From positions 1-23,327 of IMG/VR virus record IMGVR_UViG_3300017740_000083: a DNA stretch of 23,327 nucleotides. The stretch is one strand, 5' to 3'. The notes under the pieces were generated by a model. It did no database searches. It was not told where the DNA came from and was given only the letters and a program-made list of their open reading frames with translations. Position numbers and translations under genes: made by a program. Of the stretch, positions 7,411-23,069 are shown piece by piece (position 1 is the stretch's first letter; the number at the start of each line of letters is the position of its first letter). This DNA is from a virus.

Positions 7411-7851
7411 TTATTTTATTTTTATTGTTTTACTTTTCTTTTCTTCTGGAAGGTTAAGCTTCATCTTAATTAAAAGTATGCCGTCTTTAAACTCTGCATC
7501 TTTAACTTCAAGATGTTCTGCAAGAGTCCACTTTCTAGTAAAGGCTCTCTTTGCTATTCCTTTATGAAGAAAACTTTCTTCTTCATCTTTTGATTCTTTA
7601 GAAGCTGATATAGTTAAGACATCTTCTTTGACTTCTACATTGATATCACCTTTAGTGAATCCTGCTAAAGCCATTTCCAATTCATAACCATCAGTACCTA
7701 GCTTACGAATATTGTAAGGTGGGTAACTTGGTGCTTCAAAGTTTGACATTGAAGACAGTTGGTCAAAGATAGAATCAAAGCCGACTGTTAAGTTTCTAAA
7801 TGGGTCTGCATTAAACACCAGACCTCTTCTTGTTGTTGTAGGTATGTTCAT
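7411..7851 (-). CDS. Small heat shock protein, Hsp20/IbpA family
   Basis: A 146-aa ATP-independent holdase chaperone. The N-terminal FNADPFRNLTVGFDSIFDQL matches the IbpA-type leader, and YPPYNI opens the alpha-crystallin domain (about residues 43-135). That domain includes DGYELEMALAGFTKGDINVE, the beta strands VEVKEDVLTISASKE, and AFTRKWTLAEHLEVKDAEFK. The C-terminal IKI (residues 143-145) is the I-x-I tail that docks sHSP oligomers. Phages, notably marine myoviruses, carry such genes; here it lies in the late operon, so it may protect virion proteins during assembly or lysis proteins from aggregation. AAAGGAG sits 7 nt before the ATG, a strong ribosome site. Confidence 0.95.
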   Translation of the reverse strand: MNIPTTTRRGLVFNADPFRNLTVGFDSIFDQLSSMSNFEAPSYPPYNIRKLGTDGYELEMALAGFTKGDINVEVKEDVLTISASKESKDEEESFLHKGIAKRAFTRKWTLAEHLEVKDAEFKDGILLIKMKLNLPEEKKSKTIKIK

Positions 7852-7929
7852 AATTAACTCCTTTCATTAAGCAAGTTATTGTTGTTGTTGTCATCTAGAG
7901 TGCTACCTATAAGCCACCCCAAATCTCTA

Positions 7930-7951
7930 GTAGAAATAATAAAATTTCTAC
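7930..7951 (-). other. Perfect AT-rich inverted repeat in the longest intergenic gap (7852-7972)
   Basis: GTAGAAAT (7930-7937) and ATTTCTAC (7944-7951) form a perfect 8-bp stem with a 6-nt loop. It lies 21 nt after the lysozyme-protein stop in the direction of transcription. No T-tract follows on the - strand, so a simple intrinsic terminator is unlikely. It could be an mRNA processing or stability hairpin that separates the virion genes from the Hsp20/lysis genes. The rest of the 121-nt gap holds the Hsp20 ribosome site and nothing else I can name. Confidence 0.45.
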
Positions 7952-9197: not shown

Positions 9198-12100
9198 TTA
9201 ATTATTCCTTTGTTGTAATCTTCTTGTTAACTCTTTAACGTACCCACCTTGATTAAATAAATTTGGTGATATTAATTCAAAATCTTTTTTAAAAAAATCT
9301 TTCTGTAAATTAAAATTATCTTTGTAAGTAAGACCAGGAACTCCTGTTCTTGTTAATAAACCCCTAATAGTAGGAGCAGGTAAAGCATCATAAAAATTTC
9401 TAATAGCTTCATCATAATCTTGTTTACCAAAAACACCACCAGTAGCATTAGTTATAGCTAAAAAAGAATTACTTGCTACAGTAGCACCTGGAAATATTTC
9501 TAAAGGTCTGTCTGCTCCTGGCCCTACAACTCTATTTAAAACATAAGTAGGTAACCATCCCATGTTACCAGATAAATTCATAGAGTTAGCTAACCAAACA
9601 TCAGGACTATCATCAATATTAGTTCTAACTTCACCATACTTTGCATACTCTCTTAAAGAACTGATAGCTCCATAAACAGTCAAAGCTCCAGTCATTTTAA
9701 ATAGTTGTGCTTGTTCACCACTTTCTGCTCTGGCTATTAATGCATTTGTTTGTGCAGATTTAGCTTGTGCCCAAGAACTAAACTGACCTAATATTCTTAC
9801 TAATGGATTTCTTGTTTGTGTAAATAATAATCTATTACCAACAGTAGGAATAATTGCATCTCTATCAGCAGACTTTACTCCAATTTTATTAAGTAAGACT
9901 TTTCCTTCTTTATTAGCTAAAGCTTCATCAAGTGTATTAAACTTACCTAATTTTATAACATCTTTAATTGAAGTAACTCCAAGTTTAGTAAGATGTTGTA
10001 TATCTTCTACTTGTACTTTATTTAAAGATTTTAAATTTCTAAAAGATTTTACATTAGCTTTTTCTAAAGCAAGAGCAATAGACCTAGCACTTTTATATCC
10101 ATCTACTATTCCTGTATTATATGCATACCTTCTAGCTACATTTGTAATACCTTCAAGACCTATATATTTAAAAAACTTTTCATTACCCATTCCAATAATA
10201 TCTATGTATCTAGCAGAAGCTTGGCCAGCTTCAGTAGCTGTCCTATCTCCAGCACCTACATAAGCATCTTTTAATAATTGTCTAGCAATTTTACCATGAA
10301 ATAATTCAAGAGATTCGGCTCCACCTTTTTCGTATTTAGTACGAATGTTTGTTCTAGCAATTCCTTGTAACCAAGAACCAAAGTGTCTACTATTTTGAAA
10401 CGGTTGTACTAAATCACCAAGGTTAGCTATAGTAACTTTATCCATCATAGATAAGTTAGCTAATGTAGAAAGTGTAGCTACTATATTTTTTTCTGCAGGA
10501 TTACCTACTCTACCATGTCTTCCAAACAAAGCATTAACTGAATCAGCTATAGCTTTAACATCTTTATTATAACCACCAACTCCCATAGTTTCTTTAGTAA
10601 AACCATTATTAATATATTGACTTTTTAATCTATTAAAATAACTATTTAATAGTTCACCATTAGGACCAAACTTTCTAGCAAATTCTACTGATTTAACACT
10701 AGTACGAGCTAAGTCATTTAATACAGAACCTATATCATTAACCAACCATTTTTCCATTACTTTTTCTACATCATCATAAGAACCTTGTATAACTCTTTGA
10801 TGTTGTATATGCTCACTAAGAGGTAAGACTAATTTTAATTGACCTCTAACATCTGAATTTAAAATACCATAGTTAGAATCTAAACCTATAATAGGATTAT
10901 CATATTCTCTACTAATACTTTCAAAATATTTTTTAGCTGCTGCTTTACCTTGTGAAGGAGTAAACATTTTTTTTCCTACAGGAACACCAGCATTTTTAAG
11001 TATTTTTCTTTGAGCTGAAGTTTTACTTATATTTTGAAATACAGTTCCCATATCAGTCATAAATAACTCCATACTTTCTTTGCTTTTATTAACTGCATTA
11101 AAATTAATTTTTCTAGGAAAGTAATTTGTTACTGCTTCTGCTTCTGTAATACCTACTTCATTAAAATAAGATTTAAAATCACTTAAAAATCCTTTAATTT
11201 TTGTAGCAAGTTGTTGTGCTTGTGAATTAAATTTTTCTGTAGAACCTCTAACAATTTTTAAAGCTTCATCTTGTGTTTGTTGAGATGCTCCAAAAAGTAT
11301 TCCTTCTTCTCCATATATAGCTCCAGTAAATCTATTGTAATTACTTTGTGCTAATTGTTCTATATTAGAAGTTGTTCCTGTTAATACTGGTCCTCTTCCT
11401 TCAACTACATTTCCAAAAAAATTAAGTCGAGGTGCTGTATCAAATTTAGGAAACATCATTGTAGAAAGTTCATCTACTATTGGACCTCTAGAAGAAAGTT
11501 TAGTAGATAAAGTTGTTGATGTATTTATATTAATTTGTCGTGCTAAATTTTTTACATACTCTCCATTTAATAAACGAGAAAATCCTTGTTGAACATTTGT
11601 AGGTATGCCAGTAAGTGAGCCACTTCTTAAAGCTCTTGAAGTTAAACCAAGAGCAAAACCAGAAGCAACAAAAGTATTAAATCCTTCTTCTGAATCTGTA
11701 AATAAAGTTCCTGCAGTAGCACCCATTGCTGAGCCAACAAGAGGTCTAGTTAAATTTATAGCTAACATTCTACCAAGTTGAGATTGTAAACCACCAATAG
11801 AATGTATTTGTTTAATAAGTTCTTGTTGATATTTATGTTCAGCTCCTGCTTGTTTTTCTAAACCTAGTTTAATTTCATCAGATAGTTTTTTAGTATACTT
11901 AGTGTAATCGTTTTCAGTACCTGTTAATATTTTTTTTTCTTTATCAGTTAATTTTTTAACAAGTTTTTTATATTTAGGTGACTTTGAACTTAAAACTTCT
12001 CCTGTTTTTTTATTTATTAAACCAAGAGATTTTTTTATTTCACTTAATTTTAAAAGTCTTTCTCTTTTAGGTTGTACATAACTAGCAAAATTATTATTAA

Positions 12101-13034
12101 CTGATTCTAATTCTTTAAACAATCTTTTTATTTCAGGAAGAGAAGATATTTTTTTTACTTGTGTAAGTTGTTTAGATGTAATATTTAAATTTTTAAGAGT
12201 GTCCTCTTTTAATATTTGAGTAACAGCTCCAGCTTTAGTTTTATCTCCACCAAATATTTTAGGTGCTACTTTACTAGCAACTTTAGATACACCTGTTGTA
12301 ACTCCTAATGCAACAGGAGATAATACAGCACCTGCACCTGCACCTACAAGAACATCATCCCAATTAAATTTTCCTTTTGCGGCAGTGTGAATAGAAGTAG
12401 CTCCAGCTCCTACACCAGCACCTAAAGCTGCAGTAGCTCCACCTGAAACTGCATAAGATTTAATTCCTTTATAAGCTCTTCCTGCTTGAGCTGCTCTTCC
12501 CCAAGGCATTAAAAAATACACAGGGTCTGTTAACATAACTAAACCACGACCACTCCAAACAGCAGCATCATTATCATACTTACCATCTTTAAATTCTGGA
12601 AAATTTTTTTGTATTTCTTTTACTCTTTCTTTTTCTATTTGTTTAGAAGTTTTATTAGTAAAAGCAGCTTCACCTAATCTCCACAAATCTCCAAATAAAT
12701 AAGTCTCAAGAGCCGCACCGTACTGTGCTTTTCTAACAGCAGAAGGTTCTCCTGTTATAGTTGTTTCAGAAGTTACTTGAGGTTCACTTCCTGTAGCCCA
12801 AGATTCAAAATTAAAAGTAGAAGTAACATTATCAGTAGGAGTAGTAAGTTCTTTTATATTTTCTTTATTAGTTTTTTCATTTCCTGTAGCCCAAGATTCA
12901 AAATTAAAAGTAGAAGGAGTTTGTTCTATACTTTCAATAGAAGTATTTTGTTCTATAGTTTCAATAGGCACCTCTTTTATATCATCAGGCTTTTCAGATG
13001 TTGCCCAACTTTCAAAGTTAAAAACTTCAGACAT
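9198..13034 (-). CDS. Very large internal virion / ejection protein, 1278 aa
   Basis: The largest gene in the window, likely the functional counterpart of T7 gp16-type internal core proteins, which are ejected with DNA and form a channel across the cell envelope. No enzymatic domain is visible; the muralytic activity is in the next gene. The N-terminus carries three copies of FNFESWAT (about residues 5-12, 43-50 and 74-81). A Gly/Ala-rich hydrophobic region follows (about residues 190-260, including GGATAALGAGVGAGATS and VGAGAGAVLSPVALGV) that could enter membranes. Then come Lys-rich coiled-coil stretches and a long helical C-terminal part (FSSWAQAKSAQTNALIARAE, LPAPTIRGLLTRTGVPGL) that I associate with large internal proteins of marine podoviruses. 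It starts 10 nt after the 623-aa gene with an AGGAAAA ribosome site. Confidence 0.85.
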   Translation of the reverse strand: MSEVFNFESWATSEKPDDIKEVPIETIEQNTSIESIEQTPSTFNFESWATGNEKTNKENIKELTTPTDNVTSTFNFESWATGSEPQVTSETTITGEPSAVRKAQYGAALETYLFGDLWRLGEAAFTNKTSKQIEKERVKEIQKNFPEFKDGKYDNDAAVWSGRGLVMLTDPVYFLMPWGRAAQAGRAYKGIKSYAVSGGATAALGAGVGAGATSIHTAAKGKFNWDDVLVGAGAGAVLSPVALGVTTGVSKVASKVAPKIFGGDKTKAGAVTQILKEDTLKNLNITSKQLTQVKKISSLPEIKRLFKELESVNNNFASYVQPKRERLLKLSEIKKSLGLINKKTGEVLSSKSPKYKKLVKKLTDKEKKILTGTENDYTKYTKKLSDEIKLGLEKQAGAEHKYQQELIKQIHSIGGLQSQLGRMLAINLTRPLVGSAMGATAGTLFTDSEEGFNTFVASGFALGLTSRALRSGSLTGIPTNVQQGFSRLLNGEYVKNLARQININTSTTLSTKLSSRGPIVDELSTMMFPKFDTAPRLNFFGNVVEGRGPVLTGTTSNIEQLAQSNYNRFTGAIYGEEGILFGASQQTQDEALKIVRGSTEKFNSQAQQLATKIKGFLSDFKSYFNEVGITEAEAVTNYFPRKINFNAVNKSKESMELFMTDMGTVFQNISKTSAQRKILKNAGVPVGKKMFTPSQGKAAAKKYFESISREYDNPIIGLDSNYGILNSDVRGQLKLVLPLSEHIQHQRVIQGSYDDVEKVMEKWLVNDIGSVLNDLARTSVKSVEFARKFGPNGELLNSYFNRLKSQYINNGFTKETMGVGGYNKDVKAIADSVNALFGRHGRVGNPAEKNIVATLSTLANLSMMDKVTIANLGDLVQPFQNSRHFGSWLQGIARTNIRTKYEKGGAESLELFHGKIARQLLKDAYVGAGDRTATEAGQASARYIDIIGMGNEKFFKYIGLEGITNVARRYAYNTGIVDGYKSARSIALALEKANVKSFRNLKSLNKVQVEDIQHLTKLGVTSIKDVIKLGKFNTLDEALANKEGKVLLNKIGVKSADRDAIIPTVGNRLLFTQTRNPLVRILGQFSSWAQAKSAQTNALIARAESGEQAQLFKMTGALTVYGAISSLREYAKYGEVRTNIDDSPDVWLANSMNLSGNMGWLPTYVLNRVVGPGADRPLEIFPGATVASNSFLAITNATGGVFGKQDYDEAIRNFYDALPAPTIRGLLTRTGVPGLTYKDNFNLQKDFFKKDFELISPNLFNQGGYVKELTRRLQQRNN
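12788..13031 (-). repeat. Three-copy FNFESWAT repeat at the N-terminus of the 1278-aa protein
   Basis: An exact 36-nt direct repeat occurs at 12788-12823 and 12881-12916 (93 nt apart), with a diverged third copy near 12998-13031 (114 nt further). Each encodes (S/V)(T/F)...FNFESWAT followed by an acidic/Ser-Thr spacer of about 22-30 residues. The copies are in frame and separated by disordered-looking sequence, as expected for a repeated short binding motif. Confidence 0.9.
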
Positions 13035-13044
13035 TATTATTTTC

Positions 13045-14916
13045 CTAATTTAAATATTTTTTAATTCTACTATTTATGTTTAAAATATTTCGATAGTTGT
13101 TATTCCATTCTTTTTGAGCAGTAGCGTAATCTTCTCTTCTTTGTTTAAAATCTTCTACAGATTCAGTAAAACCATCCTCATTTCTAAATCTAGTTTCAAA
13201 AAGAGTATCACTAGGATTAGCAGGAATAGTATCTATAAATGCATTCCAACTATCTTTATTATTATCTCTCCACTCTTTAAATTCAGAACTAATACCTACT
13301 GCTCCTGCTTTTTTAATTGCTCTTCCATTATTAGGAGGCATAAAATCTTCTACATTTTCTAATGTAATTGTAGATTTAGTTTTATTTTCTTCAGGTATTA
13401 ATGTATTTACTTGTTCGTCAACAGATGTTTTAATAGATTCTTGTGTAGTTGATTGAGTTTTTAACCATTTTTGATAACCAGCTAAAATATCAGAAGAAAC
13501 ACCTTTTGAATTTTGGAGACCTCCTGTTTCTTTTACTTTTTTATCAAAACTTTCCCAAGTATTAATTGTTTCATTACCATCTTTAACTGCATTAAATCCA
13601 CTATCTGTAATAATATATGTTACAGCTTTTGGATTTAAAACACTTGATACAAACGCATCCATTTCAGTTTTAGCAACTCTTAATGTAGAACCTTGTTCTT
13701 CATATTTTTCTGCAATAGCGTTTAATTCTATTGCTAAATAATCTTTAGTATTTACTTCTTCATTATTAACTACTATAGTAGAGGGTACATTTGTTCCTAA
13801 CCCTACTATATTAGTAGGAATTACATAAAATCCTTTAATAGGTTGTTTAATATCATAACCAAATTGGTCTGTATCTAATTCAATTTTTCTATTAATAAAA
13901 GATTGACTTACTGCTTTTTTAACACTGGCTTCATTTAAAGTAGTTAAATCTCCAGTAAAATATTTAGCCATATTATAATAATAATTATCCCATTCTACTT
14001 GTAAACCATTAATTGAATCAAATAAATCTTGTCCGTCTGGTCTTACAGTAATATCACCTTTATCGTTTTTAACAACAATATCTTTTATTTTTTCAGATGG
14101 AATAACAGACCCCATAACAGCAGTTGAAATTCCATAAGTACTTTTACTTTGAATACTTTTCCAAACACTATTTAAAGTACTTAAATCTGAACTATTTTTC
14201 ATTACAGTTTTTTTACCACCTAGTATGTCTGACTCAATAGCTTTTTCATATCCACTATCCATATCATTTTGTAAAGTTTGTAAAACACTAGCAGATTTAT
14301 CATCTTTATTAAAAAGTTTTTGAGTTAATGTAGAAACAGTATTATTTTCAATATCTTCTTGAGCTTGTGTAAATTTAGATGAATCAAAATAATTTTCATA
14401 CTTAGGTCTTACAGGAAGTGCTGTTCCTTCATAAGTATATCCTGTAACTTTACCATCTTCTCCTTGTATATCTTTTATTTTATTTATTTCATTTTCTAAT
14501 TGAAAAGATATACCACTACCAGCATCTATTTTTGTTCCAGTATTAGGAATAATTCCTTTAGCTACTAAAATATTCATACCTATTTCTTCTTTAGAAGCAC
14601 CTTTACTTGCTGATGCAGATACTAAACTATTCATAGCATTATCTAATTTACTAGTTGTTGCAAAATCTGTTTCGTATTGTGCTGATTTATTAGCAAACAA
14701 TACATCAGCTCTTCGTCTATAATAATCTTTTTCTTTAGCAAGTTCTTCTCCTCTTGCTTTAATTAATTCTTGTCTTTCTCTCATTGCAGTTTCTGCTAAA
14801 CCACCTGCAACTTGTAAAGCACCATCAGGATTTTTAACTGCTAATGCAAGAGCACCTACTCCTAGTGCCCCTTTTAATATTTTTTTAAAATTATTATTTT
14901 TTTCTTCTTCAGCCAT
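13045..14916 (-). CDS. Probable internal virion protein, 623 aa
   Basis: No family recognised, but position between the acidic 209-aa protein and the 1278-aa protein fits a T7 gp15-like ejection protein. The N-terminus has a hydrophobic stretch (ILKGALGVGALALAVKNPDG) followed by Ala/Glu/Arg-rich helices (ETAMRERQELIKARGEELAK). The remainder is a mixed, Asn/Ser/Thr/Lys-rich sequence without cysteines. A hydrophobic N-terminal helix plus helical body would suit a protein that contacts membranes on ejection. The start sits in a TAATG overlap with the upstream gene, and GAGGAAGAGGAG upstream provides a ribosome site. Confidence is high that it is a gene, modest for the role. Confidence 0.85.
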   Translation of the reverse strand: MAEEEKNNNFKKILKGALGVGALALAVKNPDGALQVAGGLAETAMRERQELIKARGEELAKEKDYYRRRADVLFANKSAQYETDFATTSKLDNAMNSLVSASASKGASKEEIGMNILVAKGIIPNTGTKIDAGSGISFQLENEINKIKDIQGEDGKVTGYTYEGTALPVRPKYENYFDSSKFTQAQEDIENNTVSTLTQKLFNKDDKSASVLQTLQNDMDSGYEKAIESDILGGKKTVMKNSSDLSTLNSVWKSIQSKSTYGISTAVMGSVIPSEKIKDIVVKNDKGDITVRPDGQDLFDSINGLQVEWDNYYYNMAKYFTGDLTTLNEASVKKAVSQSFINRKIELDTDQFGYDIKQPIKGFYVIPTNIVGLGTNVPSTIVVNNEEVNTKDYLAIELNAIAEKYEEQGSTLRVAKTEMDAFVSSVLNPKAVTYIITDSGFNAVKDGNETINTWESFDKKVKETGGLQNSKGVSSDILAGYQKWLKTQSTTQESIKTSVDEQVNTLIPEENKTKSTITLENVEDFMPPNNGRAIKKAGAVGISSEFKEWRDNNKDSWNAFIDTIPANPSDTLFETRFRNEDGFTESVEDFKQRREDYATAQKEWNNNYRNILNINSRIKKYLN

Positions 14917-15545
14917 TATGCTAACTCCTCTTCCTCTGTGTCAGAAATACCTAAGTCTTCTGCTTTAGGTAACTCTTTTACTCTTGCAAGTAAAGAAGGT
15001 TCAACACTAGATTTTCTAATTTCTTTTGGTTTCATATCTTTTAATTGTTTATCTGACTCTTCCATATACATTTCTTTTTGGTCATCATCAAAATCTTCAT
15101 CTTCATCTTCATAAATTACAGGCTCAATATCATTTTGTTCTGCTATTGCAATAAGAAGATACATTAAAGGCTCAATACAAAGAAGCATTAAATCAGGATT
15201 AATTTTACCACTTGTCATAGAAGTGTAAAGTACTGTTTGAACTATTTCATCAATAGGAGTATTGTTTAAATATTGACCTAGCAACTCTACATAGTTATCT
15301 TCTTCAGTCATTTTTAAAAACAAATCTTCTATAAAAGGTCTTACCTCAGTATATTCAGGTGAACGTTCCCATGGAAATTTTGATTCGGGTGCAGCTGTTA
15401 AACTTTCACCTGGAACAGGAGCATCAAAAGGGTCAAAGCTAGTACCATCTCCTAAGTCTACTTGACCTGCAGTATCTGCAGCAGGATTTGGTTGCTCTTG
15501 ATTGGCTTCCAATTGCTGTTCTATATTTACGTTTTCTTCTTCCAT
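14916..15545 (-). CDS. Acidic hypothetical protein, 209 aa
   Basis: Strongly acidic at both ends: an N-terminal Glu/Gln/Pro-rich disordered region (residues 1-55, with DLGDGTSFDPFDAPVPGES), then a helical hydrophobic core (about 60-145, IEDLFLKMTEEDNYVELLGQ and LLCIEPLMYLLIAIAEQ). An Asp/Glu run (YEDEDEDFDDDQKE) and a charged tail ending EEEELA follow. A scaffold-like, chaperone or virion role is suggested by its place before the two large internal proteins. It sits just after a set of very basic proteins, which could be electrostatic partners. It overlaps the 59-aa gene by 19 nt and the 623-aa gene by 1 nt. Confidence 0.82.
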   Translation of the reverse strand: MEEENVNIEQQLEANQEQPNPAADTAGQVDLGDGTSFDPFDAPVPGESLTAAPESKFPWERSPEYTEVRPFIEDLFLKMTEEDNYVELLGQYLNNTPIDEIVQTVLYTSMTSGKINPDLMLLCIEPLMYLLIAIAEQNDIEPVIYEDEDEDFDDDQKEMYMEESDKQLKDMKPKEIRKSSVEPSLLARVKELPKAEDLGISDTEEEELA

Positions 15546-15706
15546 GATTTTTTATCCTTTAATAAATTATCCAGAGGATGCTCTGGTAAATTAAATTTTT
15601 TCTTTCTTTCTTTTTCTCTTTTTTCTTTTAGTTCATTAAACTCAAACTCAAGTTGTTCTTCTGTATTTTCTTGTTTTTTCTGCGATTCTCTTTGGTTGCT
15701 TAACAT
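15527..15706 (-). CDS. Small charged coiled-coil protein, 59 aa
   Basis: Start assigned at the ATG at 15706; a further upstream ATG at 15757 would make a 76-aa product but overlap the 82-aa gene by 110 nt. The product (MLSNQRESQKKQENTEEQ...) is a highly charged helix (EFNELKEKREKERKKK) followed by FNLPEHPLDNLLKDKKSWKK, which looks like a folded or binding tail. It overlaps the 82-aa gene by 59 nt in another frame and the 209-aa gene by 19 nt. Without it there would be about 100 nt of gap in an otherwise packed operon, which supports it, but the overlap lowers confidence. Confidence 0.6.
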   Translation of the reverse strand: MLSNQRESQKKQENTEEQLEFEFNELKEKREKERKKKFNLPEHPLDNLLKDKKSWKKKT

Positions 15707-15896
15707 GTTGTTTTCCCTTTCGAGTGCCTTTACGTTTAGCTTTAGTTGTAGCAGCATATTCGGCTGCAGTCAGAGACTTAATAGCAGCTGACGGAAGATA
15801 ACGTTCTCCTGTCTCACTACTTTTTTTTCCAGATTTAGTTCGCCATACTTGTTTTGTCCACTGTTTAAGAGATTTTTGAGATTTTTTTAAGGCCAT
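15648..15896 (-). CDS. Small basic conserved viral protein, 82 aa
   Basis: Strongly basic (MALKKSQKSLKQWTKQVWRT at the start, KRIAEKTRKYRRTT at the end). The core SGKKSSETGERYLPSAAIKS, followed by LTAAEYAATTKAKRKGTRKGK, is a pattern I know from many aquatic phages and some giant viruses; it may correspond to DUF5872, from memory and unverified. Function unknown; charge suggests nucleic-acid binding. It is the first gene after the exact-consensus promoter at 15902-15930. Only 5 nt separate the -10 hexamer from the ATG, and there is no Shine-Dalgarno sequence, so its mRNA from that promoter would be leaderless or nearly so. Confidence 0.85.
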   Translation of the reverse strand: MALKKSQKSLKQWTKQVWRTKSGKKSSETGERYLPSAAIKSLTAAEYAATTKAKRKGTRKGKQHVKQPKRIAEKTRKYRRTT

Positions 15897-15901
15897 ATTA
15901 T

Positions 15902-15930
15902 ATTATACCATACTATATAAGAGTTGTCAA
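15902..15930 (-). promoter_or_regulatory. Exact-consensus sigma70 promoter
   Basis: On the - strand: TTGACA (15930-15925), a 17-nt spacer (15924-15908) and TATAAT (15907-15902). All 12 hexamer bases and the spacer match the bacterial housekeeping consensus. It fills the 37-nt gap between the 61-aa gene stop and the 82-aa gene start. The expected start of transcription, about 7 nt past the -10, falls at or within 2-3 nt of the ATG at 15896. It would drive the 82-aa, 59-aa, 209-aa, 623-aa and 1278-aa genes and what follows. I found no second match of this quality near other gene starts. Confidence 0.85.
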
Positions 15931-15933
15931 TAG

Positions 15934-16119
15934 TTAACTTTTGTAACCACCACCAGCAGCTTTGTATTGTTTAGCCAACATTTGTGCTTTACGAGCAGAC
16001 CATTGACCAGCTTTACCACCTTTAGTACCAGCTTTAATTTTATTAAATAATCTTTTACGCATTCCAGGTTTAGTATAGTTACCTGCTGCATTTACTTTAC
16101 TTTTAGGTTTAGTAGCCAT
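15934..16119 (-). CDS. Small basic conserved viral protein, 61 aa
   Basis: MATKPKSKVNAAGNYTKPGM, then RKRLFNKIKAGTKGGKAGQW and SARKAQMLAKQYKAAGGGYKS. The KGGKxGQWSARKAQxLAxxYKxAGGGY core is one I know from phages and nucleocytoplasmic large DNA viruses. Very basic, with no acidic residues visible, so DNA or RNA binding is likely by charge, but no activity is known. Ribosome site AAGGAAAA lies about 7 nt before the ATG. The stop is 3 nt before the -35 of the promoter. Confidence 0.85.
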   Translation of the reverse strand: MATKPKSKVNAAGNYTKPGMRKRLFNKIKAGTKGGKAGQWSARKAQMLAKQYKAAGGGYKS

Positions 16120-16530: not shown

Positions 16531-17882
16531 TATGCGTATTTACTACTTCCTTGTATATCTAATTTTTGTCTATCAAAACCATCTTGAAGAGCTTTAGTTA
16601 GTAGTGAACCACTTTTGTTATAACTTCCTTTTGAATCACCATAACTAGCTCCATAAGCTTCTAAAGAAGAATCACCATAACCAGTACTATAAGAAGCATA
16701 AGCATCTTCTTGATTGTCTGCTGCTAAATAAGATGAAGCATAATCAAGTGCTTTAGTTTTTCCTTTATCAAGTAAACTACTTGTTTTAGCTTTAGCACTT
16801 ATATCATAAACAGGTGCATCACCTACACTAGTATAACTACCTGTTTGCCACATAGAAGCATCTCCTACTCCACCTTGTGTTGATGATAGTTTAGCTTTTG
16901 AACCAGTATAACTATATTGAGTAGCTGAATCCATATGAGGATTAGGTTGAGAAACTGTAAAGTCTCCTGAACTTGAGTAATCAATATCCCATGTTGTTTT
17001 TGTTTTACCTGGTCCTGTAACTTGTGTAGTAGAAGTCATACCATTATTTTTTGTATACTCATGTGCACTAAAGTCATCAAGTTTATAATCTTGTTTAATA
17101 GTGTTATGATATCTTTGAGCATCAGGTGTCATGTTTTGATAAATACCTTGTTTACTCCAAGCAGCATTTAAAATATTATATGACTGTGCATTAGCAGCAT
17201 TAGCTACTGCCATATTAACACCACCAGTACTAACTACTCCACTAGCACCTGCAACAAAATTACCTGTAGCTTTTGTTACTTGAGCAGCTATTGTACCAGG
17301 AGCACCACGAGCACCAGTTAAAACAGTTTGAGATACAAGTTTTTGTGTACCCATACCTGCACGACCACTAAGTACATCACCAGTTCCACCTACAAGATTT
17401 TTAAATCCTTCTGAAAAATTTCCTTGACCAAAACTTCCCACAGTTTTAGATAAAGTTTGTGTTATACCTTTGTAAGTACTACCAACAAATTGAGCACCTT
17501 TATAAGCATAACTACCTAAAGTTTTCATAGCACCTCCTAGTCCTGAAGCAAATCCAGGTGCAACTCCACCAGGCATAAGGAAACTTCCAAGGTTACCCCA
17601 GGCTGTACTAGCTATACCGCCTAAACCTCCCATCAGCCAAGGCATAGCAAAAGATAAGGCCATCATCCCTATTGGACCTATCTTATTACTAAACTTAGCA
17701 AACTTAGTCATAGCACTCTTGCCAAATTTTTTAATTCCTTCCCAAGTTTTTTTACCAAGTTTTTTAATTCCTTTGGCAACTTTTTTTACAACCTTAGTAA
17801 TAGGATTTTTTTTGACAACTTTCTTGACAACTTTTTTTACTTTTTTCTTTACTTTTTTTATTGCTTTAACTACTGAACCCAT
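16530..17882 (-). CDS. Probable virion protein with Lys-rich, membrane-active-looking N-terminus, 450 aa
   Basis: The first 67 residues hold about 26 lysines in a repeating helical pattern (AIKKVKKKVKKVVKKVVKK, VVKKVAKGIKKLGKK, WEGIKKFGKSAMTKFAKF). They are followed directly by a hydrophobic Gly-rich segment (residues about 68-115, GPIGMMALSFAMPWLMGGLG). This cationic amphipathic plus hydrophobic pairing resembles membrane-permeabilising peptides. The middle and C-terminal parts are Gly/Ser/Thr/Tyr-rich, with YASYSTGYGDSSLEAYGASY, probably fibrous or disordered. No enzymatic domain. The start overlaps the end of the HlyC-like acyltransferase gene by 17 nt, with GGAG 9 nt upstream. A virion ejection or penetration protein is the best guess; the lysines could also simply bind DNA. 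Confidence 0.82.
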   Translation of the reverse strand: MGSVVKAIKKVKKKVKKVVKKVVKKNPITKVVKKVAKGIKKLGKKTWEGIKKFGKSAMTKFAKFSNKIGPIGMMALSFAMPWLMGGLGGIASTAWGNLGSFLMPGGVAPGFASGLGGAMKTLGSYAYKGAQFVGSTYKGITQTLSKTVGSFGQGNFSEGFKNLVGGTGDVLSGRAGMGTQKLVSQTVLTGARGAPGTIAAQVTKATGNFVAGASGVVSTGGVNMAVANAANAQSYNILNAAWSKQGIYQNMTPDAQRYHNTIKQDYKLDDFSAHEYTKNNGMTSTTQVTGPGKTKTTWDIDYSSSGDFTVSQPNPHMDSATQYSYTGSKAKLSSTQGGVGDASMWQTGSYTSVGDAPVYDISAKAKTSSLLDKGKTKALDYASSYLAADNQEDAYASYSTGYGDSSLEAYGASYGDSKGSYNKSGSLLTKALQDGFDRQKLDIQGSSKYA

Positions 17883-18321
17883 AGTCTTTTTCTCCTTTTG
17901 TAAATGCGTATCCTTGTTTTTTAACTTTTACTTCGCCAAACTTATCTTGACCTAAACGTATCCAATTTATTTTTTGTTTATCACCAACTTGCTCAGCTAA
18001 ATTTCTTTGTGTCCACCTATGTAATGTAAGAACACTACCATCATTACATATAGTATCCATGTGCCATATATTTTTTCCATTATTCCACCAGCTTTCATTT
18101 TCTATTATACCTGTGCGTTTAAATCTTTTAGAAGATTCATTGTTCATAAAAGCCCAACTAGTATAAGCAAAAGGTCTATCGCCTCTTCTAAAAACTCTAT
18201 ACTGATTAAGTTTTATTGGTGGTAAAACTTGTTGTAAGATGTGTTCAACATCTCCTTTAAATATATCTTTGTATATATTAGCAGTTCCAACTAAATGAAC
18301 TGCAGCTTCTACATCATTCAT
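17866..18321 (-). CDS. HlyC-like toxin-activating lysine acyltransferase family protein
   Basis: A 151-aa protein aligning with HlyC, which moves fatty acyl groups from acyl-ACP to internal lysines of RTX toxins. Matches include VLPPIKLNQYRVFRRGDRPF (HlyC VLPAIRANQYVLLTRDNYP), AYTSWAFMNNES (AYCSWANLSLEN) and W..GKNIWHMD (W..GDRKWFID). Asp89 corresponds to the HlyC catalytic-site Asp92. The catalytic His of HlyC (His23, in PLHRNW) is not conserved: the best alignment, needing a short insertion, puts Tyr17 there; His9 and His27 are nearby candidates. The family match is clear by eye; acyltransferase activity is uncertain. It lies between the 671-aa protein and the Lys-rich 450-aa protein, overlapping the latter, so that protein is the natural candidate substrate. 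An A-rich leader with no Shine-Dalgarno sequence precedes the start. Confidence 0.82.
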   Translation of the reverse strand: MNDVEAAVHLVGTANIYKDIFKGDVEHILQQVLPPIKLNQYRVFRRGDRPFAYTSWAFMNNESSKRFKRTGIIENESWWNNGKNIWHMDTICNDGSVLTLHRWTQRNLAEQVGDKQKINWIRLGQDKFGEVKVKKQGYAFTKGEKDYGFSS

Positions 18322-20927: not shown

Positions 20928-20959
20928 TGTTTTCCTTTTTCTTCGCCCAATATTTTAAT

Positions 20960-21257: not shown

Positions 21258-23069
21258 TTATTCTCCTTTTAGAACTTTAATTTCAGCGGAAAGTTCTTTT
21301 ACCGCATTTATTAAATACCAAAGTAAATTATCTGTTTCAATTGATTTTACTCCTGTACTTTCAGTCTTTACAATTTCAGGTAAAATTGTTTCTATTTCTT
21401 GAGCAACAACACCTAATTGTGTTCCACTTTTATTAACATAACAAGATTTTGCGTTATCAAAGTCTGTAACTTCTTCTAAAGTTCTATACTCAAAATTTCT
21501 TACTTGAATTTGGTCTATTTTTTCTAAACCAATATTATTATTAACAATATTTTTTTTAATACGTTCATCAGAAGTTTGAGACCAAGTTGTGCTGTTATTA
21601 CCTTGATAAACACCACCACCATTAGGGTTAATAAATCCAGTGTTTGCACCTTTACCATCTGAATCATAACCTATAACTATTTCATTTCCTACAGTTGCAC
21701 CTGAGGCATCTGTAGCATCCCCTATCATTATACTATTACCACCAGTGGTTATATTGTCTCCTGCTTTGTGACCAACACAAACAAGACTTCCACCATCAAT
21801 AACAGCTAACCCTGCTTCAAAACCTATCAATGTATTTCCTGACCCAACAGTTAAAGCATTTCCTGCGGCATTTCTACCAATAGCAACATTATAACTACCT
21901 GTTATAGTACTTTGACCACCACAGTTATCACCTATAAAAACATTACTACCACCCGATGTTAAAGATGCACCTGCATCAGTACCAATTAAAACATTTCTAA
22001 CACCTGTATTTAAAGCACTGCCAGTATTATAGCCCAAGGCTGTATTATTATCACCAGAAGTCAAAGCATCTAAAGAGTAGTTACCGATTGCTACGTTGTA
22101 TTCTCCGCCTGCTATTGAACCTGACATTGCTAAATGACCGATAGCCAAGTTGTTTGCCTCAGTATCAGGAAGTTGTAATGCGTTTCTTCCTATTGCAATA
22201 TTCCCATCAGTAGTTGTTGTTTGAGCTAATGCGTCTTGACCAATGGCTACATTATTTGCACCAGAAGTAATATCCTTACCAGCATTAGTTCCAACGCAAA
22301 CATTTCCGTCACCATCTACAATAGCCTCACCAGCGGCATAGCCAACTAAAGTATTGTTGCCACCAGTGGTAATTGCAGTACCAGCTTGATACCCTACTGC
22401 TGTGTTAAAATCTGCAGAAGTTAAAGCATCTAAAGTATAGTTACCTATTGCTACGTTGTATTCTCCTCCAGCTACAGCTCCACCAAGAGCGGATGTACCA
22501 ATAGCCAAGTTATGATTTTCTGTATCTGCTGCGTCATAAGCTAAATAGCCCATAGCTAAAATATTACTGCCCGTTGTATTTGATGTAGCAGCTTTGTAAC
22601 CAACAATAGTTGCTTCACTCATACTTGTCATTTCTTCGGCAGCTTCGTTACCAATTACAACATTGTAACCACTTGTAGCAGCTTGTGCAGAACCAGCTAA
22701 ATACCCAATAATAACATTTTCCGATGCACTTGTAGCATTTGCAAATGCATTTTTACCAATCATCACGTTTTTACTACCAGTATTCATATCAGTTCCAGCT
22801 TGTTGACCGATAGCTACATTTTGGTCTCCAGTTGTAATAGCATCTAAGGCATTTATTCCATAAGCGGCATTAGCTTCAGCAGTGTTATCTGTTCCAGATA
22901 CATCGTGAGTATAGATAGAATTATCAGCAGTATAGAACGGAATACCAGCAACACTAGTAGCTGTACCTGTTGCACCTACTGCACCGTCTTTTAAGGTTAC
23001 CCCGTCAACGGCTACACCGTTAGCATTAGTATTTTCACTAATAGTATCTACTTTAATCGTACTTGTCAT
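21258..23069 (-). CDS. Tail fibre with collar-type AIG repeats and C-terminal S74 chaperone domain
   Basis: A 603-aa receptor-binding fibre. The N-terminus MTSTIKVDTISENTNANGVA is of the kind that starts marine phage fibres and probably attaches to the tail. Residues about 70-470 are some 18 repeats of 21-26 residues built on NVAIGxxAG, as in YadA-head-like trimeric beta-rolls. The C-terminal about 105 residues are an intramolecular chaperone (peptidase S74): WSQTSDERIKKNI with Ser500-Asp501 at the expected self-cleavage site, then IQVRNFEYR, LGVVAQEIETILPEIV and a final coiled coil. The domain trimerises the fibre and is then cut off. Start is 12 nt after the upstream stop, with TAAGGA as ribosome site. 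Confidence 0.93.
   Translation of the reverse strand: MTSTIKVDTISENTNANGVAVDGVTLKDGAVGATGTATSVAGIPFYTADNSIYTHDVSGTDNTAEANAAYGINALDAITTGDQNVAIGQQAGTDMNTGSKNVMIGKNAFANATSASENVIIGYLAGSAQAATSGYNVVIGNEAAEEMTSMSEATIVGYKAATSNTTGSNILAMGYLAYDAADTENHNLAIGTSALGGAVAGGEYNVAIGNYTLDALTSADFNTAVGYQAGTAITTGGNNTLVGYAAGEAIVDGDGNVCVGTNAGKDITSGANNVAIGQDALAQTTTTDGNIAIGRNALQLPDTEANNLAIGHLAMSGSIAGGEYNVAIGNYSLDALTSGDNNTALGYNTGSALNTGVRNVLIGTDAGASLTSGGSNVFIGDNCGGQSTITGSYNVAIGRNAAGNALTVGSGNTLIGFEAGLAVIDGGSLVCVGHKAGDNITTGGNSIMIGDATDASGATVGNEIVIGYDSDGKGANTGFINPNGGGVYQGNNSTTWSQTSDERIKKNIVNNNIGLEKIDQIQVRNFEYRTLEEVTDFDNAKSCYVNKSGTQLGVVAQEIETILPEIVKTESTGVKSIETDNLLWYLINAVKELSAEIKVLKGE
22021..22540 (-). repeat. Long-period (360-nt) duplication inside the fibre repeats
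   Basis: The blocks around 22021-22165 and 22381-22525 align with an offset of exactly 360 nt (120 residues, five beta-roll units). Both encode GGEYNVAIGNY(T/S)LDALTS preceded by NLAIG and followed by NTA(V/L)GY. Other units between them are clearly more diverged, so this is a later multi-unit duplication on top of the older single-unit repeats. Confidence 0.8.

Follow-up and report, generated by a model that had tools for sequence, protein, structure and literature searches.

We find that a virus fragment of 23,327 nucleotides carries a sigma70-type promoter that matches the consensus at every position and abuts the start codon of a small gene within the structural region. In the following, the window means this whole fragment, a 23.3-kb virus record and therefore a partial genome. 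The explanation that overall we hold to be probable is that of a strong extended -10 sigma70 promoter which lies inside a structural operon, is read by the host RNA polymerase and may give a leaderless message of the gene that follows it, here called gene B.

The promoter in the gap between genes A and B

The promoter, its parts and the surrounding genes are as follows.

15902-15930, minus strand: promoter TTGACA-17-TATAAT, 12 of 12 consensus positions
15925-15930, minus strand: -35 element TTGACA, 6 of 6 positions
15908-15924, minus strand: 17-nt spacer ACTCTTATATAGTATGG, its 3' end being the extended -10 TGG
15910-15908, minus strand: extended -10 TGG, directly 5' of TATAAT
15902-15907, minus strand: -10 element TATAAT, 6 of 6 positions
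15897-15901, minus strand: 5-nt discriminator ATAAT, between the -10 element and the ATG at 15896-15894
15934-16119, minus strand: gene A, 61 aa, PHROG 17747, unknown function
15648-15896, minus strand: gene B, 82 aa, basic, PHROG 14910, unknown function; first gene after the promoter
15527-15757, minus strand: gene C, open reading frame of at most 76 aa whose beginning lies within the last part of gene B; the true start is probably inside this frame
14916-15545, minus strand: gene D, 209 aa, function unknown, with its own AAGGA Shine-Dalgarno sequence; marker of the syntenic block
9198-14916, minus strand: proteins of 623 and 1278 aa, downstream of gene D in the same direction; from size and position likely internal virion proteins

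An AT-rich gap of 37 nt between the stop of gene A (15934) and the start of gene B (15896) houses the promoter, and only 3 nt separate the end of gene A from the -35 element. The initial annotation had described two perfect hexamers with a 17-nt spacer in this gap, had called such a match rare by chance and had noted that the -10 element ends 5 nt before an ATG without Shine-Dalgarno sequence; all of this is borne out. It had overlooked the TGG. With both hexamers, a spacer within the 16-18 nt range and a TGn motif, the site falls into the extended -10 class of sigma70 promoters. In dinucleotide-preserving shuffles TTGACA-N15-19-TATAAT is expected 0.07 times per window, and the promoter is the only 12/12 match that the window contains. 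Sites with up to two mismatches are at chance level (9 observed, 7.3 expected). Given also its retention in relatives (below), we conclude that the sequence at 15902-15930 is very probably a genuine promoter. It is of a known kind, for the most part an ordinary promoter for host RNA polymerase; its placement against a start codon is moderately interesting, as is the difference in promoter quality between these phages and their host. On the plus strand a promoter-like site with 10 of 12 matches (TTGAGA-17-TATATT, 15876-15904) overlaps it, probably by chance.

As to the genes, the 623-aa protein has no match in Pfam, PHROG or NCBIfam and the 1278-aa protein none in Pfam or NCBIfam; the NCBIfam search likewise gave no function for genes A, B and D.

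The virus and its RNA polymerase

The plus strand of the window encodes DNA polymerase A, endonuclease I and a B12-type ribonucleotide reductase, followed by convergent structural genes on the minus strand. HTVC115P, HTVC104P and HTVC103P are the only deposited phages to which the large structural protein has a match, the gene order agrees with that of HTVC115P, and the G+C content of 33.6% is within the 31-34% of this type. From the homologous structural genes in the order of HTVC103P, HTVC104P and HTVC115P, the DNA polymerase A and the G+C content, the window is from an HTVC103P-type pelagiphage. Phages of this type, as defined in PMC8528129, are pelagiphages of SAR11; they have an HMO-2011-like structural module and are unclassified (PMC10504331). 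Judging from the isolates, SAR11 is probably the host of the window virus as well.

We searched the relatives for a T7-type RNA polymerase (PF00940) and found none in those searched, the complete HTVC115P and HTVC104P included; T7 itself as positive control gave E=1e-109. As the window is partial, it is these relatives which suggest that the window virus, too, would lack such an enzyme. Host RNA polymerase is therefore expected to read the structural genes. The statement of the initial annotation that host RNA polymerase reads part of the late region gains support from a sigma70-type promoter in the structural region that is syntenic in relatives. The contrast which it drew with the late genes of T7 does not hold, since the virus is of the HTVC103P type and its complete relatives are without PF00940. 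For the same reason we reject a T7-like late transcription. The likeness to T7 is confined to the family A polymerase, endonuclease I and a resemblance of gene order in the replication block.

Conservation of the promoter

Six relative contigs have an extended -10 promoter with 12 matches or, with TTGACT, 11 in the syntenic place, upstream of gene C and the 209-aa gene D. The first gene after it is gene C in these relatives and gene B in the window; the distance to the ATG is nonetheless short throughout, as the -35 elements and TATAAT-to-ATG gaps show:

window: TTGACA, 5 nt
L169: TTGACA, 5 nt
L173: TTGACA, 6 nt
L183 and L184: TTGACA, 8 nt
L177 and L186: TTGACT, 3 nt

The members of each of the last two pairs are near-duplicates at the promoter, so that the six contigs provide four independent sequences. 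Even the spacer sequence is conserved in L173 and L183. Between the window and L183 a 39-nt promoter block is 95% identical, the DNA of gene D 68%, and no 39-nt stretch of gene D matches as well as this block; the corresponding values for L169 are 82% and 86%. This pattern points to recombination or to a strong constraint which would include the spacer. In IMG/VR the exact promoter core is found at this syntenic place alone.

Conservation of the hexamers had been proposed as a check on the promoter, and the outcome is mixed. Whereas the six contigs keep the promoter, L168, the nearest relative with genes A and B (87% DNA identity in gene D), has A-B-C-D and is without the hexamers, with only 3 nt (ATT) between the stop of gene A and the start of gene B; this one relative thus shows the outcome that the initial annotation had named as refuting. 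The promoter is thus dispensable. Neither HTVC115P nor HTVC104P has a promoter before gene B, and the more distant gene D homologues are without it.

Equal-quality promoters in related phages and in the host

Promoters of equal quality were counted, as the initial annotation had also proposed: next to the single one of the window, 42 perfect promoters with 17-nt spacer are listed in 20 relative records, up to seven per record, and the reversed pattern as control gave 0. In four SAR11 genomes (G005-G008, about 4.2 Mb) there is no perfect TTGACA-17-TATAAT, and 1.18 Mb from three of the four contain thirteen sites with 11 of 12 matches. Fourteen HTVC103P-type contigs have 43 intergenic sites scoring 11 or 12, 30 of them with an extended -10. 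Several positions recur, and perfect promoters are among those before the terminase small subunit, the portal and hsp20 (distance to the ATG):

before the terminase small subunit: 7 nt
before the portal: 16 and 46 nt
before a 68-71-aa gene: 38-39 nt
before gene C: 3-8 nt
before a 142-aa early-side gene: 29-47 nt
before hsp20: 54-79 nt

The window has lost the promoters of the 71-aa gene and of hsp20 and retained their leaders; internal promoters thus come and go. At 20928-20959 there is no counterpart of the promoter that stands 38 nt ahead of the 71-aa gene in relatives, but the leader has preserved its 3' part (GGGCGAAGAAAAAGGAAAACA).

Is gene B translated from a leaderless message?

RNA polymerase of E. 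coli as a rule initiates 6-9 nt downstream of the -10 element. In the window the A of the ATG is the sixth nucleotide, and in the relatives the gap to the start codon is 3-8 nt. With a spacing of 5 nt the A of the AUG is only just reachable, at the near limit of the start distance, and the G at 15894 would compete with it. From the sequence we predict the start of transcription at 15896, the A of the ATG, or at about 15894. In L177 and L186 the gap of 3 nt together with the usual start distance would mean an RNA lacking the AUG.

Gene B starts with AUG, not GUG or UUG, and has no Shine-Dalgarno sequence, as would be expected of a leaderless gene. About 12 of the 21 minus-strand frames of the window have AGGA or better, and AAGGA-type sites are common before the genes neighbouring B; gene C is also without one. 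Leaderless transcription at gene B, as the initial annotation had predicted it, appears plausible; the chances that this promoter gives an RNA from which B is translated without a leader we would put at about even.

We also surveyed the spacing elsewhere. At eleven loci of the terminase small subunit the -10 element precedes the ATG by 6-9 nt. The excess of 3-9 nt spacings over the family is weak (12/34, p=0.008; reversed-motif control 5/12). An apparent peak at 7 nt in a first survey was partly an artefact, and nine in-frame coding motif matches (LTGEELGSIITDME) were excluded. In unselected IMG/VR records the perfect promoters (no more than 35, all intergenic) cluster at 4-9 nt and at 23-30 nt and are scarce at 10-22 nt. 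In SAR11, -10-like hexamers 5-7 nt before starts are in mild excess (43 against 25.8 expected, p=0.001; control 29 against 29.9), which vanishes when a -35 element is also demanded (8 against 5.3). Start-codon-abutting sigma70 promoters occur also in the unselected IMG/VR sample (L389-L468) and in the Methylophilales phage MEP401 (L164; 10759 and 29814), where TTGACT-17-TATAAT stands 6 nt before an ATG.

Among alphaproteobacteria, leaderless mRNAs are known from Caulobacter (375; PMC4117421) and S. meliloti (171; PMC3616915). It is conceivable, though we regard it as rather doubtful, that HTVC103P-type and related marine phages possess dedicated super-consensus extended -10 host promoters placed 3-9 nt before the AUG for leaderless messages of the genes that head structural operons (terminase small subunit, B or C), and that SAR11 phages would thus deliberately use leaderless initiation to express structural genes.

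Proposed mechanism and alternative explanations

Promoter activity, start site, leaderless translation and extent of the operon could, as far as the sequence tells, fit together in the following way. Host RNA polymerase would read a strong sigma70 promoter inside the rightmost structural operon, and transcripts of B-C-D and the genes of the 623-aa and 1278-aa proteins would be added to those that read through from promoters further upstream. Since the -10 element directly adjoins the start codon, the A of the gene B AUG is probably the first nucleotide of some of these transcripts or of most of them, and B would be translated as a leaderless message; C, D and the later genes would be translated from their own Shine-Dalgarno sites. 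In L168, gene B could be reached by coupling from gene A across the 3-nt gap. The inserted promoter of the window separates the two genes and may have swapped coupling for leaderless initiation.

The strongest competitor, to which we give somewhat less than an even chance, accepts the promoter but takes its closeness to the AUG as incidental: the RNA would start at 15894-15890 without the AUG, B would be made by read-through only, and the purpose would be expression of C, D and the large proteins. The 3-nt spacing in L177 and L186 is indeed incompatible with a full AUG at normal start distances, gene D has its own AAGGA, and relatives have a different small first frame, as if its identity were unimportant. 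However, the spacing stays at 3-8 nt across the swap of the first gene and at 6-9 nt before most terminase small subunits, which is tighter than such a promoter needs, and both B and C lack the Shine-Dalgarno sequence that translation from read-through RNA would use. The promoter might instead belong to B as an accessory gene and have arrived together with it, in the manner of a moron. Gene B is widespread in unrelated contexts, and in three contigs (L134, L142 and L159) TTGACA-17-TATAAC lies 3-6 nt before it. Yet L168 has B without promoter, as do about 76 of 80 B homologues, and conversely L169, L173, L183, L184, L177 and L186 have the promoter but no gene B; this explanation is largely refuted, and we consider it unlikely.

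That the perfect match is a functionless chance product of AT-rich intergenic DNA is very improbable. The composition of the gap, the lack of the promoter in the closest A-B relative and the chance level of two-mismatch sites would fit, but not the rarity in shuffles, the synteny in six contigs with diverged flanks or the 42 perfect sites in relatives against 0 in controls. We give equally little credit to a short untranslated RNA, regulatory or a replication primer, as the product. The first gene is small, and a weak hairpin whose T run is poor follows about 310 nt downstream (15586-15571), but terminator-like sites are at chance level, an Rfam search of the window gave no match and the initial 100 nt fold less well than shuffled sequences (z=2.0). 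On the latter two grounds a structured or known RNA at the transcript start is rejected. We prefer the host-read promoter, with B as a possible leaderless message.

Comparison with known systems

The pelagiphage Skadi-1, a phage without RNA polymerase, has sigma70 promoters (PMC10504331), and in phage T5 all promoter classes are sigma70 (PMC7472727). The window virus resembles both in its expected reliance on host RNA polymerase and sigma70-type promoters with no phage polymerase. The promoters of Skadi were reported near replication genes, whereas the window site heads a block of the structural region and abuts an ATG.

The cI message of lambda is a leaderless phage mRNA. The cI and cro messages of phage PY54 are leaderless, too (PMC4488713). 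These genes share with gene B the strong promoter immediately upstream and the RNA from the AUG, the latter predicted for the window; they differ in being lysogeny-switch genes with mapped starts, whereas B is a structural-region gene with a predicted start. In Deinococcus-Thermus a -10 motif about 6-7 bp upstream of the open reading frame leads to leaderless mRNA (PMC12340547). The -10 element adjoins the frame there as here, but the arrangement is genome-wide and often without -35 element, unlike the full -35 and extended -10 of the window.

SAR11 phages belong to the most abundant viruses. In the literature searched we found no transcription-start map for them; the promoter set described here amounts to a testable promoter map. 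Perfect host promoters in polymerase-less phages, with 0 in 4.2 Mb of SAR11, could help to outcompete host genes. If the leaderless starts are true, several structural-region messages begin at the AUG, beyond the few lysogeny-switch examples known.

Other features of the window

The hsp20 leader (7852-7935, minus strand) is conserved across HTVC103P-type phages. One hairpin has three compensated pairs in ten sequences; in a second, CUYGCUU pairs with AAAGGAG and thus with the Shine-Dalgarno sequence, like in an RNA thermometer. In place of the hsp20 promoter of relatives, an inverted repeat GTAGAAAT...ATTTCTAC is present in the window (7922-7943) and in L179 (about 7730-7760); its 6-nt loop reads TTTATT in the former and the reverse complement AATAAA in the latter. 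Among the structural genes, 17866-18321 (minus strand) encodes an HlyC-like lysine acyltransferase (PF02794, E=6e-18); HTVC115P has it under the annotation toxin-activating acyltransferase, and so has HTVC104P, though at another place of the genome. Finally, a 603-aa protein (21258-23069, minus strand), which contains repeats and, at its C terminus, a Peptidase_S74 chaperone of endosialidase domain (PF13884), is likely a tail fibre or spike.
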